In this document: piece after piece, positions 3,598 through 63,012 of the stretch
Layout: every line of letters starts with the position of its first letter
Position numbering within the stretch: position 1 is the first letter of the stretch
Source: Chiridota heheva
Lineage: Eukaryota > Echinodermata > Holothuroidea > Apodida > Chiridotidae
Assembly (NCBI GenBank): GCA_020152595.1
Contig: JAIGNY010004604.1
Span: 53,501-117,500 of the forward strand
Length of the DNA: 64,000 nt
Direction: 5' to 3'
The notes under the pieces: model-generated
Told to the model about the DNA's origin: nothing
The model's database searches: none
The model's input: only the letters and a program-made list of their open reading frames with translations
Made by a program: the position numbers and the translations under genes

Positions 3598-4540
3598 ACA
3601 CCCCCTGTTACAGTACAGCACTGTACAGTACCTGTTGTACAGCACTGTACAGTACCTGTTGTACAGCACCGTACAGTACCTGTTGTACAGCACCGTACAG
3701 TACCTGTTGTACAGTACCTGTTGTACAGCACCGTACAGTACCTGTTGTACAGTACCTGTTGTACAGCACCGTACAGTACCTGTTGTACAGCACCGTACAG
3801 TACCTGTTGTACAGCACCGTACAGTACATGTTGTACGGCACCCTACAGTACCTGTTGTACAGTACCTGTTGTACAGCACCTGTTGTACAGCACCGTACAG
3901 TACCTGTTGTACAGCACCGCACAGTACCTGTTGTACAGCACCGCACAGTACCTGTTGTACAGTACCTGTTGTACAGTACCTGTTGTACAGTACCTGTTGT
4001 ACAGTACCTGTTGTACAGTACCTGTTGTACAGTACCTGTTGTACAGTACCTGTTGTACAGTACCTGTTGTACAGTACCTGTTGTACAGTACCTGTTGTAC
4101 AGTACCTGTTGTACAGTACCTGTTGTACAGTACCTGTTGTACAGTACCTGTTGTACAGTACCTGTTGTACAGTACCTGTTGTACAGTACCTGTTGTACAG
4201 TACCTGTTGTACAGTACCTGTTGTACAGTACCTGTTGTACAGTACCTGTTGTACAGTACCTGTTGTACAGTACCTGTTGTACAGTACCTGTTGTACAGTA
4301 CCTGTTGTACAGTACCTGTTGTACAGTACCTGTTGTACAGTACCTGTTGTACAGCACCTGTTGTACAGCACCTGTTGTACAGCACCATACAGTACCTGTT
4401 GTACAGTACCTGTTGTACAGCACCTGTTGTACAGCACCTGTTGTACAGCACCTGTTGTACAGCACCTGTTGTACAGCACCTGTTGTACAGCACCATACAG
4501 TACCTGTTGTACAGCACCATACAGTACCTGTTGTACAATG
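3598..4540. repeat. 14-bp minisatellite (CCTGTTGTACAGTA)
   Basis: About 65 units. A central run from about 3955 to 4352 is nearly perfect 14-bp CCTGTTGTACAGTA. Both flanks carry a CAGCA variant of the unit and compound 24-bp units in which an extra CCGTACAGTA (or CCATACAGTA) is inserted. The unit contains the palindrome TGTACA. Fourteen is not a multiple of three and the unit has no stop in most frames, so long but meaningless open frames cross the array on both strands. Confidence 0.97.
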
Positions 4541-16765: not shown

Positions 16766-18310
16766 TATCTATTTTATCACCAAATATGATTAAAAACTTT
16801 AAAAGAATAAAGAAAATCTGATCAAATTCAGATAAAGAAACATGCAAAAAAAAATCACAGTACGGCACATGCATCAATGTAGCTTATTTGCATATGACAA
16901 CAGAGAGAATGTTGACGGTTTCTAATCCACAAATTTGTATTTTTGACCAACGAACAAAACTTGGTCTCGTAAATGACTAGCCAATTTATAAAAGCAATAT
17001 TTCAGAAGAAACACATTCTGGTTTATCCCTAAAGAAAAAATATCTCTGTTAACTTAGCGAGAAACAATACACAAAGATCAAAATATGTCAGTGTCATGTC
17101 ACTACACGCTTGTACCGAAGACCAGCTGTAAACATGTACTGCACTGTACAGTACATAGTAAAACATCAGTGCAGTAACAGTTTGGCTGATGGCTTAAAGC
17201 ACACGCCTGTGTCCTGTCAAAGTGTGAAGAATACTGGAAAATGGTAACTCTTTTAGGCCTAGTTATTATTGGAACAGAAACTACTGTTATTTAATATTCT
17301 CAAATTTGTCAGAATGGGAAAGTTTGAGCAGTTTTGAAGTTGTTGAACATAGCGTTTTGATTTGGGGCTATGCACTGCTAGGCTAGTTACATGTACAACG
17401 AAAGTACTGTGTAGCTTGTGGGCCTAGATACATGTACGCACAATTAAATTGTGTTGTAGGCCTAAACACTTTAAAGCTTAGGCCCTCATGTTACAAAATA
17501 AGATTAATGATTCTAAAAAAAAGTAAAGCAGGCAGTTTCATTCCTACAGTTGTAATATACTTGTTTGGTGCAAGTACTGAACAAATATATTCCTGTTGAA
17601 CTTGTATTAGTATGAACTTGTACAAGGCTTAGCTTAAATTTTTACATTTTGCTTTTGGATTTTTATTTATCACATTCTATTTTAAGGTGTGCGCATTGAC
17701 TATGTTGTTGCTCAAATTAAATCTGGAATAATCAGCTTGTCAGCAAGAAGTTTGTTCCTGCTGAAATTGAAATTGAGTATTTTTGGCATAATTTATTTTT
17801 GTGCGTGGAATTATTAGTGAAGGCTTAATCCGTGGTTGCCATGATTAATGTAGGAGTTTAATACCTGTACCCCACATCAGACACTGTCAATCTTATGAGT
17901 ATGCAACTAATAACCAGACAGTAGGATGAGGCTTGTCAGCCAATCGGGTAGCTTGAAATAAATAACTGGTAATAGAATACCCATTCTACCCACCTACTGT
18001 ACCTGTTGTTTAGGAAATATCTTAGTGTACAGTAAGTCATATTAGCTCATTTATCTTTTAAACATTATCATTAGACAACTTGTTTTGGGATCTACTTTCA
18101 TAAATTAGGAGGATTTAATTAGCATCTTAGAGCACTACGTATAGGGTGAAGAGGCAGCAGGTGAAAAAGAAATAAGTAAGTTCAAAGTTAAAGGAAAACT
18201 AGACTTAAACTAAGGTTCGTTTGGTGATTTATTCAAATATTCATTAACCTGTTTTGCCTTCAAAAGTGAAACAATACTATTGTTTATGAATCTTAGATAA
18301 CTACCAGGTA
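16766..18310. other. Non-coding AT-rich stretch
   Basis: About 1.5 kb with scattered TGTACAGTAC words and no supported gene, array or transposon end. Confidence 0.45.
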
Positions 18311-18360
18311 TAATGCACTTCTCAGTTGTGTGACTACACCCCCGGACAAAGTGAGTCATA

Positions 18361-19229
18361 ACCTCTTCATCAATCTCTACAACCAAATCAAAGACCAACT
18401 CTCAAATTACACCTCCATCTATACTGATGGCTCCAAGGAAGGCAACAAGACAGCTGCTGCTACTGCTGTCATCCAAGACATTGCCCTCAGTAGTAGGCTT
18501 CCCGACTACTCATCCATCTTTTCAGCCGAGGCAAAGGCTATCCTCCTCGCCCTCAACTTAATTAAGTACTCAACTTAATTGAGTACTCTCCGCTCAGGTA
18601 TTATGCCATTTTCTATGACTCAAAGGCTGTTCTTACTTCTTTACTCAATCTTAAATGAGATAACCTCACATGCCACCTCCTCCTCCGGAAACTCCTTTCT
18701 CGCACCCTCTGCAGGAAAAGTGTTCTTTTCTTCTGGATACCCAGCCATGTTGGCATTCCTGGCAATGACAGGGCTGATGCAGCCGCTTAGCTTTTCCTCA
18801 ACCTCCTCCCTACCCCTTTTCAAAAAACCCTCTCTGACATCAAAATGCTTATCGCTTCCCTTGTTCGTGACCGCTGGCAAACCTGATGGAACTCCCAAAT
18901 TGATAACAAACTCCATGTCATCCAGCCCACAATTCCAAACAAGTCCACCATCAACAACCTCTCGTATCGACAACGTTCATATTACCCGCCTTAGAATTGG
19001 TCACACCCACCTCACTCACTCCCACCTCCTTATTGGCTCCCCCCAACCCCTCTGCAACAATTGCCACTGCGCCCTTACAATCCATCACATTCTTCTTGAT
19101 TACCCCCTGTACAACCTTCCCAGAGCTTCCCTCGCTCCCCACAACTTAATTGCTGAGTTCTTTCAGAAAAATCCTCCGGATAAAATTATCTCCTTCCTTC
19201 ATCATGCTTCCCTCTACAACCATATTTAA
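18361..19229 (+). pseudogene. Broken LINE RNase H and C-terminal domain
   Basis: RNase H motifs are visible in order: IYTDGSKEG (first catalytic Asp) near 18418, SAEAKAILLAL (catalytic Glu) near 18522, FYDSKAV (second Asp) near 18612, and WIPSHVGIPGNDRAD (His, Asn, Asp end motif) near 18740. They lie in different frames. The first break coincides with a 17-bp tandem duplication (18554-18587), and at least one further indel follows. The C-terminal knuckle reads CNNCHCALTIHHILLDYP, with Tyr where the last Cys is expected. The copy is dead. Confidence 0.88.
18554..18587. repeat. 17-bp tandem duplication inside the RNase H frame
   Basis: CAACTTAATTAAGTACT is followed directly by CAACTTAATTGAGTACT. 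Seventeen is not a multiple of three, so the second copy shifts the frame. Reading on from the second copy continues the RNase H domain, which shows the duplication is the inactivating change. Confidence 0.9.
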
Positions 19230-46670: not shown

Positions 46671-46673
46671 TAA

Positions 46674-47080
46674 GGGAGGGTCTGTAATTGAATTTGCACA
46701 TAGACCACCTCGCCCACTTGAACAAGGAAGGGGGCATTACCAGGGAGGGTCTGTAATTGAATTTGCACATAGACCACCTCGCCCACTTAAACAAGGAAGG
46801 GGGCGTTACTAGGGAGGGTCTGTAATTGAATTTGCACATAGACCACCTCGCCCACTTAAACAAGGAAGGGGGCGTTACCAGGGAGGGTCTGTAATTGAAT
46901 TTGAACAAGGAAGGGGCGTTACCACGGAGGGCTGTAATTGTTACCAGGGAGGGTCTGTAATTGAATTTGCACATTGACCATAGACCTTTTGCACATAGAC
47001 CACCTTGCCCACTTAAACGAGGAAGGGGCGTTTTTAGGGAGGGTCTGTAATTGAATTTGCACATAGACCATTGGCCATAG
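46674..47080. repeat. 69-bp minisatellite upstream of the Ig gene
   Basis: Six to seven units with a 69-bp period (GGGAGGGTCTGTAATTGAAT ... AACAAGGAAGGGGGCGTTA). Later units are shortened. The period is 23 codons, so the minus strand stays open for about 145 codons, but nothing else suggests a protein. It ends about 105 bp before the splice acceptor. Confidence 0.92.
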
Positions 47081-47167: not shown

Positions 47168-47185
47168 ATTGACTTGTTCTTTCAG
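47168..47185 (+). other. Splice acceptor of the Ig-gene exon
   Basis: A pyrimidine-rich TTGACTTGTTCTTTCAG precedes G at 47186. The frame runs open through the site from 47162, but no ATG is in frame before 47249, so upstream text is taken as intron and an earlier exon is expected. Confidence 0.6.
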
Positions 47186-47248: not shown

Positions 47249-48745
47249 ATGTTGATAAACAGAACCCCCCAGAAGACTTGCCTCTTCTTCAAAAAGAAGC
47301 TATATGTGCTATTCAACTCTTATGGAAGTTTCCTCTTATTCATAGTTGTCAGTTTATGTTGTTCCTTAACTTGTGGAAGTGAAATTTCATTTAGCTTTTT
47401 TCCAAAAAACTTCGAATATATGGTTGGAAGTAAAAGTTTTCATATATTTTGTAGCGCCAACTTCTTGCCAGACAATCATTCGATATCGTGGGTGGTCAAC
47501 GGAGTGGTTATAAGTTCTGCATTACAAATGAAGGAAAACTCTACAGACTACCATCTAAGGAAGAGTGACAGCAGATATGTTTTGAGTAAATCACTCGTTT
47601 TGAAAGAAGATCATGGCACTGTCTATCAGTGTCGCGTATACAACAGTACTTCTATTCTTCAAAACCCCAAGTATCCATTCATTATAGAATCGCCCCCTGC
47701 CCAGTTGACGGTGCTGTATGCTCCACTTAAATCAGACCCACAGTGTCAGCTGGATTTTAACGTACAGGGTGAAGAAAGGATTATTGAAGCTTCTTGTTGT
47801 GCGGAATTGACCACTTCTCCACTCAAGTTGACATGGGTCCAACGTCCAGTTGAGTGGAGTACACATGTTACTAGTACAATTGATTCAATTGGCACTCAAA
47901 AACATGAGTGTTTGACACATCAGATTGAAGAGGATTCACTGGATGGTAGTGAGTATAAATGCCGACTTCAGAGCCCCAATGTTTCATCACTAACACAGGA
48001 GTGTTCTATAGGAAACGTTGAAGCAGAGATTAATTACTTGACGGTTCTTGACAACCAGTTAGAACTACGTTGTGACAATGGTGCCACAAATATTATTGGT
48101 TATACTTGGAAACTTGAACCAGATGTCGAAGGTTATACCCTATCAAAAGACAGATCAGAGATTTCTTTTGAAGTCCACTTTACAGAATCGGTGCGTGAAC
48201 TAGATGTTACTTGTACTGTTTTTACTCCAAATTCTTTTGGCAGAGCGTCACTAAAAATCAAAGAAAATCCTACCACAGATACTCCCAACCCTTTATATCA
48301 AAATCATATCCTTATAGTGATTGGGAGTTCATGTGGTGTTGTAATATTAGTCCTGATCATTATTATTCTTGCATACCTAATTAAAATGCGAGGTATATGT
48401 TTTTGTTTTCAACCTCGTGATAGATATTCAGCAATGCAACTTAATCAAATGAAACAAGCACGTGAATCACTTAAACCAAATTCATACAATAGAGAAAATG
48501 GTATCAGCCCGCTGAGTGACAATGTCAACAATCACATGCAGGAAGAAGAGGAGGACATACCTCCAGTCCCCGGAGGAAATCGACAAATCAGCTCTCATCT
48601 TTTGAACTACGTTGATTTGGATCACGGGAATGCAGCGGAGGGCCAGTCAGAAGAGTCACCTGCCCTTGAAAGAGCGGAACAGATTAGAGTTGAATATGCG
48701 GACATTTTGAAACCCCCGACGCAACCTCTAAGAGAAATGAGTTAA
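47249..48745 (+). CDS. Three-Ig transmembrane receptor with ITIM-like tail
   Basis: A 498-residue type I membrane protein in one exon. The start is the first in-frame ATG after the acceptor, with A at -3. A hydrophobic segment at 27-40 serves as signal peptide behind a long basic lead. Ig-like domains: first C68, W81, YQC128; second C183/C184, W196, YKC238; third C275, W287, C322. N-glycosylation sites at N97, N132 and N244. A transmembrane helix lies at about 354-379, followed by Cys-rich ICFCF. The 119-residue tail has YSAM (Y393, a YxxM PI3K-type site), acidic EEEED, IPPVPGGNR, and two ITIM-like motifs, LNYVDL (Y454) and VEYADI (Y483), 29 residues apart. Known ITIM receptors recruit SHP phosphatases when phosphorylated. 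An inhibitory or adhesion receptor role is inference; the exact family is not recognised. If an upstream exon supplies another ATG, the N-terminus would change. Confidence 0.85.
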   Translation: MLINRTPQKTCLFFKKKLYVLFNSYGSFLLFIVVSLCCSLTCGSEISFSFFPKNFEYMVGSKSFHIFCSANFLPDNHSISWVVNGVVISSALQMKENSTDYHLRKSDSRYVLSKSLVLKEDHGTVYQCRVYNSTSILQNPKYPFIIESPPAQLTVLYAPLKSDPQCQLDFNVQGEERIIEASCCAELTTSPLKLTWVQRPVEWSTHVTSTIDSIGTQKHECLTHQIEEDSLDGSEYKCRLQSPNVSSLTQECSIGNVEAEINYLTVLDNQLELRCDNGATNIIGYTWKLEPDVEGYTLSKDRSEISFEVHFTESVRELDVTCTVFTPNSFGRASLKIKENPTTDTPNPLYQNHILIVIGSSCGVVILVLIIIILAYLIKMRGICFCFQPRDRYSAMQLNQMKQARESLKPNSYNRENGISPLSDNVNNHMQEEEEDIPPVPGGNRQISSHLLNYVDLDHGNAAEGQSEESPALERAEQIRVEYADILKPPTQPLREMS

Positions 48746-49113: not shown

Positions 49114-49119
49114 AATAAA
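49114..49119 (+). terminator. Polyadenylation signal AATAAA
   Basis: AATAAA about 370 bp after the stop codon, followed by GTGAGGTTTG (GU-rich). Confidence 0.5.
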
Positions 49120-60268: not shown

Positions 60269-60784
60269 TAAAATGCATTTAATGTGTCTACTTTCAGTTC
60301 ATTGTACTTCTTGCCAGCTATGATCTCTGTGGTAGTGTAGACCTATTATGTTCCCATGCAGAACATTAACACCAATGGGGCAAAATGGGCAACAATATGG
60401 GGGCATAAGTTCATCAATTTTACAATGTAAATTGTGGCCCTTAAGGAGGAGATTGGGACATACTTTTGCTCCACAAAGGAGGAGAGACATTGTTTTGCTC
60501 AACCTTATGTATTTTTTTTTCTGCCATATCCCCCACCCCTACCCCCAGGAATTATGACACTGATATTTATTAAAGCTTCATGTAGTATCTTGAACAAATT
60601 GTAGGTATTATTTTAGAGATATACAAATTCTAAAAGTAAGCTATTGACAGTTGAAAGAGAAAAAATACAAAGGGCTTCCATAAGAATTACGATAATATTT
60701 TGCTAATCAAGATTTTTGTTGAAACACTTGTTGCAAGCTAGATGAGTGTTCAAGTTTAGCAATTGAATTAACCTAAAACAGATA
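60269..60784. other. Non-coding stretch
   Basis: Nothing recognised. Confidence 0.4.
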
Positions 60785-63012
60785 GAATCGTCTCACACAA
60801 AGGCAACTCCCACAAAACATAGAAGTGTCTCACACAAAGGCAACCTCCACAAAACATAGAAGTGTCTTACACAAAGGCGACCCCCCCACAAAACATAGAA
60901 GTGTCTGACACAAAGACACCCCCCCCCCCCACAAAACATAAAAGTGTCTGACACAAAGGCAACCCTCCACAAAACAGATAGAAGTGTCTCACACAAAGGC
61001 GACCCCCATAAAACCAATGGAAGTGTCTCACACAAAGGCAACCTCCACAAAACATAAAAGTGTCTCACACAAAGGCGACCCCCACAAAACATAGAAGTGT
61101 CTCACACAAAGGCGACCCCCATAAAACCAATGGAAGTGTCTCACACAAAGGCAACCTCCACAAACATAAAAGTGTCTCACACAAAGCGACCCCACAAAAC
61201 ATAGAAGTGTCTCACACAAAGGCGACCCCCATAAAACCAATGGAAGTGTCTCACACAAAGGCGACCCCCACAAAACATAAAAGTGTCTCACACAAAGGCG
61301 ACCCCCACAAAACATAGAAGTGTCTCACACAAAGGCAACCTCCACAAATCTTAGAAGTGTCTCACACAAAGGCAACCCCCACAAAACATAGAAGTGTCCC
61401 ACACAAAGGCAACCCCCACAAAACATAAAAGTGTCTCACACAAAGGCGACCCCCACAAAACATAGAAGTGTCTCACACAAAGGCAACCCACACAAAACAT
61501 AGAAGTGTCTCACACAAAGGCAACCCCCACAAAACATAAAAGTGTCTCACACAAAGGCGACCCCCACAAAACATAGAAGTGTCTCACACAAAGGCGACCC
61601 CCACAAAACATAAAAGTGTCTCACACAAAGGCAACCCACACAAAACATAGAAGTGTCTCACACAAAGGCGACCCCCACAAAACATAGAAGTGTCTCACAC
61701 AAAGGCAACCCCCACAAAACATAGAAGTGTCCCACACAAAGGCAACCCCCACAAAACATAAAAGTGTCTCACACAAAGGCGACCCCCACAAAACATAGAA
61801 GTGTCTCACACAAAGGCGACCCCCATAAAACCAATGGAAGTGTCTCACACAAAGGCAACCCACACAAAACATAGAAGTGTCTCACACAAAGGCGACCCCC
61901 ACAAAACATAGAAGTGTCTCACACAAAGGCAACCCACACAAAACATAGAAGTGTCTCACACAAAGGCGACCCCCACAAAACATAGAAGTGTCTCACACAA
62001 AGGCAACCCACACAAAACATAGAAGTGTCTCACACAAAGGCAACCTCCACAAAACATAGAAGTGTCTCACACAAAGGCAACCCACAAAACATAGAAGTGT
62101 CTCACACAAAGGCGACCCCACAAAACATAGAAGTGTCTCACACAAAGGCAACCCACACAAAACATAGAAGTGTCTCACACAAAGGCGACCCCCACAAAAC
62201 ATAGAAGTGTCTCACACAAAGGCAACCCCCACAAAACATAGAAGTGTCTCACACAAAGGCAACCCACACAAAACATAGAAGTGTCTCACACAAAGGCGAC
62301 CCCCACAAAACATAGAAGTGTCTCACACAAAGGCAACCCACACAAAACATAGAAGTGTCTCACACAAAGGCAACCTCCACAAAACATAGAAGTGTCTCAC
62401 ACAAAGGCGACCCCCTACAAAATATAGAAGTGTCTCACACAAAGGCAACCCCCACAAAACATAGAAGTGTCTCACACAAAGGCAACCCCCACAAAACATA
62501 GAAGTGTCTCACACAAAGGCAACCTCCACAAAACATAGAAGTGTCTCACACAAAGGCGACCCCCACAAAACATAGAAGTGTCTCACACAAAGGCGACCCC
62601 CTACAAAATATAGAAGTGTCTCACACAAAGGCAACCCCCACAGAACATAGAAGTGTCTCACACAAAGGCAACCCCCACAAAACAGAAGTATCTCACACAA
62701 AGGCAACCTTCCACAAAACGGCGACCCCCTACAAAACATAGAAGTGTCTCACACAAAGGAGACCCCCTCACAAAACATAGAAGTGTCTCACACAAAGGCG
62801 ACCCCCCACAAAACATATAGAAGTGTCTCACACAAAGGCGACCCCCCACAAAACAGATAGAAGTATCTCACACAAAGGCGATCCCCCACAAAACAGATAG
62901 AAGTGTCTCACACAAAGGCGACCCCCACAAAACAGATAGAAGTATCTCACACAAAGGCGACCCCCCACAAAACATAGAATTGTCTCACACAAAGGCGACC
63001 TCCACAAAAGTC
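60785..63012. repeat. 37-bp minisatellite, about 60 copies
   Basis: Unit GAAGTGTCTCACACAAAGGC followed by RACCCCCACAAAACATA. Diagnostic variants (AAC/GAC, TAAAA/TAGAA, ATAAAACCAATGG, CACACA) are ordered rather than random. The rare GTGTCCCACAC variant occurs twice exactly 333 bp apart (61394, 61727), which is nine units. The AAACCAATGG variant recurs about every three units at 61011, 61124 and 61234. Frames open on either strand are artefacts. Confidence 0.97.

Follow-up and report, generated by a model that had tools for sequence, protein, structure and literature searches.

A triple-Ig receptor gene with two ITIM-type tail motifs and its single-coding-exon family in the holothuroid Chiridota heheva

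Does an open reading frame of the holothuroid Chiridota heheva encode an inhibitory immune receptor, and to what kind of genes is it related? The locus lies within a stretch of 64,000 nucleotides (the window, from here on) of contig JAIGNY010004604.1, C3741 in our numbering of the assembly. An earlier note on this DNA had described, at 47249..48745, three C...W...C Ig-like domains, a transmembrane helix and a tail with the motifs LNYVDL, VEYADI and YSAM, and had seen in them a candidate immune checkpoint receptor. Coordinates and motifs proved correct, and the cores of three Ig-like domains were found, the third of them by alignment.

The interval 47249..48745 on the plus strand constitutes a single coding exon of 498 aa plus stop, running from an ATG at 47249 to a stop codon ending at 48745 with no internal stops. 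The stop-free run around it spans 531 codons, for which the chance expectation in the window is 6e-11; it is the longest non-repetitive open frame of the window, the next one having 216 codons. When the assembly (1.10 billion bases, 3,744 contigs) was searched, the sequence occurred once at 100%. An AATAAA about 370 bases past the stop (49114..49119, plus strand) is a candidate polyadenylation signal. A possible 3' splice acceptor (ttctttcag; 47169..47185, plus strand) was noticed by eye 63 bases upstream of the ATG and might hint at a 5' untranslated exon; we rate it weak because a threshold scan, which flagged two of 18 genes (17 paralogue loci plus the window gene), did not flag the window gene.

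Other elements are present in the same stretch of DNA. A minisatellite with a 69-base unit lies just upstream of the receptor gene (46673-46907), another of 2.2 kb with a 37-40-base unit is located at 60782-63009, and a 14-base tandem repeat, TGTACAGTACCTGT, of about 69 copies occupies 3622-4537 and is open in several frames on both strands. Fragments resembling a non-LTR element were observed at 18297-19226 and also in L008 and L010; their RNase_H match is weak (E = 0.029, below cut-off), and similar frames can be recognized by eye elsewhere on the contig. In the assembly a single match to Bindin, an echinoderm sperm protein, was obtained (Pfam PF02084, E = 7e-34, model positions 105-165), in agreement with an echinoderm genome; 14 control genomes lacked Bindin, a comparison of little weight because those named are prokaryotes. 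A search for COX1 in the assembly yielded no match.

The predicted protein has the organization of a type of receptor with one membrane span. Hydrophobic 19-residue windows start at residues 18-30 and 349-370, corresponding to a signal peptide region (residues 1-43, 47249..47377; hydrophobic core about 24-42 by hydropathy, cleavage site putative) and to a transmembrane segment (about residues 350-377, 48296..48379; hydropathy maximum 3.15), all features being on the plus strand. Between them lie Ig domain 1 (about residues 44-157, 47378..47719; core C68-W81-C128, supported by the core pattern, Pfam and the paralogue alignment described below), Ig domain 2 (about residues 158-258, 47720..48022; core C183-W196-C238, whose cysteines do not vary among the 16 proteins aligned) and Ig domain 3 (about residues 259-338, 48023..48262; core C275-W287-C322). 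Two extra family cysteines, C166 and C252, flank the core of Ig domain 2 within 47720..48022 and are likewise invariant in all 16 proteins. Extracellular N-glycosylation sequons are found at positions 76, 97, 132 and 244. The cytoplasmic tail (48380..48742) is 121 aa long and contains four tyrosines.

What kind of Ig domains are these? In the Pfam scan of the window protein the sole model above cut-off was C1-set, over domain 1 (27.5 bits, E = 4e-6), while Ig_2, Ig_3 and ig over the same domain and Ig_ADGRF3 over domain 2 (E = 0.006) stayed below the cut-offs. The C1-set domain is an antibody-type fold typical of jawed vertebrates, and the closest PDB match of the window protein was an antibody light-chain constant domain (E = 0.007), with antibody and TCR constant domains on top of the list. 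A true C1-set identity of domain 1 was nevertheless rejected, given that C1-set was unlisted in 11 of 11 paralogues (P0002 at E up to 1, the ten others at E up to 0.01). Ten of these 11 had V-set listed over domain 1, nine of them above cut-off; the remaining one, L042, had neither V-set nor C1-set in Pfam. Judging from these comparisons, we take domain 1 of the window protein as a diverged V/I-type domain. Domain 3 rests on its core pattern and the paralogue alignment, because Pfam listed no Ig model there in the scan of the window protein. Single-sequence structure prediction gave no usable fold: the pLDDT was 36 when the whole ectodomain was submitted and 33 when domain 1 was taken by itself.

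Used as a genome query (E up to 10), the window protein returned itself and one other place, on contig C134 (E = 0.0024), a 517-residue open frame whose product, P0002, is 21% identical to it over 316 aa. P0002 carries in one frame a signal peptide, three Ig domains, a span and a tail, and V-set, I-set and C2-set_2 models all score above the Pfam cut-off. As a query in its turn, P0002 matched 41 places within an E limit of 1, of which 27 had E up to 0.01, and a second paralogue, L041, matched 22 places, seven of them additional and two of them fragments beside L041 itself. The family thus comprises at least 34 paralogue places, or at least 35 including the window gene; these counts are lower bounds, and, with 20 of the 34 paralogue places read, some of the remaining 14 may be unrelated Ig genes. 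The window gene was not returned by the genome searches with P0002 or L041. Open frames of at least 360 aa were present at 21 of the 27 and five of the seven paralogue places and at the window gene, 27 of 35 altogether, one of them (L035) being lengthened by masked bases (N). Some family places are clustered; C3134, for instance, carries four, and so does C3267. On contig C134, where P0002 is located, three open frames look alike by eye (L018:3353-4357, L020:398-1495 and L021:4700-5782), each of which starts like a signal peptide and has a stretch rich in Thr and Ser.

Twenty loci were fetched, and 15 usable three-Ig paralogues were aligned with the window protein to give 16 sequences; the alignment excluded L032 (no span found), L035 (masked tail) and the partial loci L033, L038 and L039. 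Invariant in all 16 are the six canonical Ig cysteines, C166, C252 and prolines 159 and 164, and the same ten ectodomain positions are invariant in a 15-row alignment from which the near-duplicate L043 was omitted. A profile built from the 15 paralogues scored the window protein at 53.3 bits, compared with 8.0 for the best of 1000 shuffles, the control here being shuffled sequences and not unrelated Ig proteins. In the tree made from the 15-row alignment the window gene groups with L031, L040, L041, L042 and L044 (97/97), and has the longest branch (3.84); because of this branch length, and because the program warns that long branches meet, its position within the family is unsure. Membership of the window gene in the triple-Ig receptor family is, on these sequence comparisons, well supported. 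L040 (G000:C3522) and L044 (G000:C2084) have membrane spans followed by tails of just a few residues and L032 lacks a span; these three may be decoy or partner forms.

Two of the paralogues, L041 and L043, are located about 15 kb apart on the minus strand of G000:C3267 (about 2396436-2412797). A block of 1,138 bases, which opens shortly before the ATG and closes shortly after the tail has begun, shows 97.3% identity between them, and BLASTN of the two loci yielded no match outside this block except for extra domain-1 copies beside L041. The synonymous divergence (dS) rises from 0.031 in the ectodomain to 0.89 in the tail, for which an alignment of 82 codons shows a protein identity of 45%; for comparison, the next closest pair of the tree, L029 and L034, is separated by about 2.2 changes per site. 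The tail of L041 displays ISYNRV, an ITIM fit, and YMDM, while that of L043 contains PPYDLV, DEYDII and DEYELV and no ITIM fits. This is a paired-receptor pattern, seen in one pair of the family only, and its simplest account would be that gene conversion acted on the ectodomain while the tails evolved on their own. Directly upstream of L041 there are two extra tandem copies of signal peptide plus domain 1 (671-990 and 1012-1335 in reverse-complement coordinates), both broken by stops.

We then turn to the tail of the window protein, on which the checkpoint reading depends. Its four tyrosines are Y393 in YSAM (48425..48436), a YxxM motif that also fits the YxxPhi sorting signal, Y413, without any motif match, Y454 in LNYVDL (48602..48619) and Y483 in VEYADI (48689..48706). 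Both of the latter fit the ITIM pattern, as had been claimed, and they do so even in its strict form, [ILV]xYxx[ILV]. Among 200,000 shuffles of this tail, two or more ITIM matches appeared in 0.8%, a YxxM in 15.5% and both in 0.07%; the two ITIM fits are consequently unlikely by chance and the YxxM alone is unremarkable.

Seventeen tails were compared over the family, dropping L032 (no span), L035 (masked) and L040 and L044 (tails of few residues). They contain 157 tyrosines, with [ILV] at +3 in 43 of 156 against a background of 15.4% (p = 7e-5); at the core sites, D or E occupied +1/+2 in 26 of 86 positions against a background of 13.4% (p = 4e-5), a composition that suits kinase and SH2 sites. 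With respect to shuffled tails, Yxx[ILV] was seen 43 times (22.4 expected), ITIM fits 16 (5.9), YxxP, a Crk/Nck-type motif, 27 (10.9) and YxxM 4 (2.2, p = 0.18), the Yxx[ILV] and YxxP counts being reached in none of 4000 shuffles. Leaving out the window gene and the near-duplicate L043 gave 38 (20.7), 14 (5.5), 27 (10.3) and 3 (2.0), respectively, and leaving out also the tyrosine-rich L036 gave 36 (18.0), 13 (4.9), 16 (7.3, p = 0.0025) and 2 (1.7). The tail of L036 (G000:C835), which resembles a Crk/Nck docking platform, has as many as 33 tyrosines; 11 sites are of the YxxP type, three YDKPP repeats among them. The YxxM as a PI3K signature, proposed in the earlier note, was set aside in view of its lack of enrichment over all tails.

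The residue at -2, by contrast with that at +3, was not clearly enriched at the core sites of the 17 tails (16 of 43 versus 11.8 by permutation, p = 0.07), and strict [ILV] at -2 occurred in six of 43, with 5.9 expected. Because +3 is enriched and -2 is not, selection is visible for SH2-type sites generally rather than for ITIMs family-wide, and SH2-docking motifs are a feature of the tails as a class. The tandem-ITIM checkpoint reading stands in part: the gene encodes a three-Ig, single-span receptor of an invertebrate, no other tail among the 17 combines two strict [ILV]xYxx[ILV] sites, and a candidate partner gene exists (see below), but the ITIM is not supported as a family-wide signature; in P0002, for instance, neither the late tyrosine (PPYAEI) nor the last one (YTLQ) fits it. 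For the window protein itself we regard the tandem-ITIM reading as plausible. More robust than this reading is the finding of an echinoderm family of single-coding-exon, triple-Ig receptors with SH2-type motifs.

There may be an ITIM-rich subgroup around the window gene. Within its tree group, ITIM fits account for two of two core sites in the window gene, two of three in L031, one of two in L041 and two of three in L042, that is, seven of ten (p = 0.006 versus a 27% background), or five of eight without the window gene (p = 0.04). If L039 (one of two) and L043 (none of three), both outside the tree, are included, these figures become eight of 15 (p = 0.03) and, with the window gene set aside, six of 13 (p = 0.11), and the remaining 11 tails show eight of 28 (p = 0.51). 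We treat the subgroup as a lead, since the grouping was picked post hoc, most fits have S at -2 and the placement of the window gene is unsure.

An ITIM receptor calls for a tandem-SH2 phosphatase, and mapping of the genome located SH2 domains at 53 places and PTP domains at 151. On the minus strand of contig C584, within 39 kb, two SH2 exons are followed in order by two phosphatase exons among the matches listed, and the SH2-SH2-PTP order is the SHP architecture. PTPN11 is the closest PDB match of both the N-SH2 exon (E = 2e-32) and the C-SH2 exon (E = 4e-30); the phosphatase exon L047 matches receptor PTPs best (E = 1e-22) and PTPN11 more weakly (E = 1.5e-17). An SHP-2-like gene is thus present in this genome, which very probably possesses an SHP-2 homologue.

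Taking the evidence together, we think it somewhat probable that the window gene has diverged fast within its echinoderm family, and that the single-coding-exon receptors of this family signal via SH2 proteins, possibly SHP-2. The receptor, in whichever cell type bears it, would meet a ligand on another cell or particle, and Src-type kinases would phosphorylate Y454 and Y483. The phosphorylated tyrosines could then dock tandem-SH2 proteins. Judged by motif only, the SHP-2-like protein of the genome comes first among the candidates: SHP-2 prefers a hydrophobic residue at -2, A or V at +1 and I or L at +3, a pattern seen at both sites, which sit 29 residues apart. Local dephosphorylation would be the outcome, and the signal would presumably be one of inhibition or tuning. 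A further reading, which we consider unlikely, sees in the family a paired activating/inhibitory system of at least 35 germline receptors, with ectodomains homogenised among neighbours by gene conversion, tails free to differ and the window gene as a tandem-ITIM, SHP-2-coupled inhibitor. In such a system the tails would be ITIM-type, acidic core-type, Crk/Nck-type or absent, and the window gene would belong to the ITIM-rich subgroup.

The same genes could be adhesion receptors of KirrelL type, used for the recognition of like cells in development, for example in skeletal mesenchyme, and with tail tyrosines that couple to the cytoskeleton via adaptor SH2 proteins instead of to immune inhibition. 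The enrichment of YxxP in the tails would agree with this, and the 15-row profile placed SYG-2, which we take to be a nematode nephrin-type adhesion protein, second among its PDB matches, in a search where the 6,129 PDB sequences passing 1e-5 indicate generic Ig likeness. The kirrelL gene lacks introns in all echinoderms examined and encodes an Ig transmembrane protein required for skeletogenic cell fusion, according to the available text of its description (PMC8903837); the window gene resembles it in being an echinoderm Ig transmembrane gene with an intronless coding region (a 5' untranslated intron being possible), and its family is likewise single-exon. Adhesion or fusion is a serious rival to immunity, because KirrelL is the closest published echinoderm gene that we found. 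However, KirrelL is described in that text as one gene in skeletal cells, while the present family, with 35 or more divergent loci and one pair sharing its ectodomain, looks more like a recognition repertoire; moreover, it was published as a skeletal cell-fusion protein, tyrosine goes unmentioned in the main text (PMC8903837), and the likeness drawn here is to its published description. On balance this alternative seems to us rather unlikely, though of some substance.

Could the tail tyrosines instead be YxxPhi endocytosis or sorting signals, and not kinase sites? Each of YSAM, YVDL and YADI agrees with YxxPhi, a number of fits that 3.3% of shuffles equal or exceed, and YSAM begins 16 residues into the tail as drawn, but sorting signals leave unexplained both the acidic residues at +1/+2 across the family and the enrichment of YxxP, and we find this improbable. 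Little credence is given, too, to the view that this is an ordinary adhesion protein whose tail shows the motifs by chance: the p of 0.008 for two ITIM fits is uncorrected for the many tails and motifs that could have been noted, and the -2 residue lacks enrichment over the family, yet +3 is enriched over the 16 other tails, which were not picked for motifs (41 versus 21.5 expected). That the window gene is a retropseudogene, as its intronless coding region and the lack of a close paralogue might suggest, is very improbable in the face of a 531-codon open frame so rarely expected by chance, of intact glycosylation sites, cysteines and tail, and of the 26 of 34 paralogue places that are open over at least 360 aa as well.

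How does the preferred reading, a receptor signalling through SH2 proteins, compare with systems already known? Vertebrate paired and ITIM receptors (Siglecs, KIRs, SIRPs, CEACAMs) combine an Ig ectodomain, a single span and spaced tandem ITIMs; the window gene is alike in its Ig ectodomain, single span and spaced tandem ITIM fits, and L041 and L043, with near-identical ectodomains and different tails, recall the paired receptors, whereas the single coding exon of the window gene sets it apart. Specific homology to Siglec, KIR, LILR or CEACAM was not found in the Pfam and PDB searches, which returned generic Ig similarity only; a two-sequence profile put carcinoembryonic antigen first in its match list (E = 1.5e-12), over positions of domains 1 and 2. 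Tandem ITIMs as a signature of vertebrates, as the earlier note had it, is too strong a statement, since such motifs have been reported from a tunicate and a cnidarian (PMC12065747), and oyster is reported to have Ig receptors that are Siglec-like or carry an ITAM (PMC5877582, PMC11999971).

Among invertebrates, ITIM-type receptors are reported in Botryllus and Hydractinia in the available portion of PMC12065747. According to the same portion, the Botryllus fester co-receptors (FcoR) are, like the present family, multi-gene type I Ig receptors of similar size, with long tails that carry ITIM, hemITAM or bare Y-x-x-I/L/V core motifs; they differ in an ectodomain that combines a V-type Ig domain with a sushi domain and two Ig domains of C2 type, and in pairing with fester genes (PMC12065747). 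A sushi domain was not listed by Pfam in the window gene (E up to 10), in P0002 (E up to 1) or in ten further paralogues (E up to 0.01). The oyster proteins CgSiglec-1 (PMC5877582) and CgIgIT2 (PMC11999971) are also invertebrate Ig receptors with inhibitory or ITAM-type signalling in immune cells, but they come from a mollusc and have two and five Ig domains, respectively, and a single-exon paralogue family is not described in the accessible text of either paper. In the literature that we surveyed, which covered few subscription papers and is weak evidence of absence, no echinoderm ITIM receptor family and no large single-exon Ig receptor family was found.

Innate recognition in vertebrates centres on inhibitory and paired receptors, whose history before the vertebrates is documented by a few cases. 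An echinoderm family of this kind would offer a tractable setting, in sea urchin or sea star embryos and in coelomocytes, for asking whether paired signalling arose repeatedly, and whether such signalling has its roots in adhesion proteins like KirrelL. For the question of SHP-2 binding, the natural choice within the family is the window gene, given the two strict ITIM fits of its tail.
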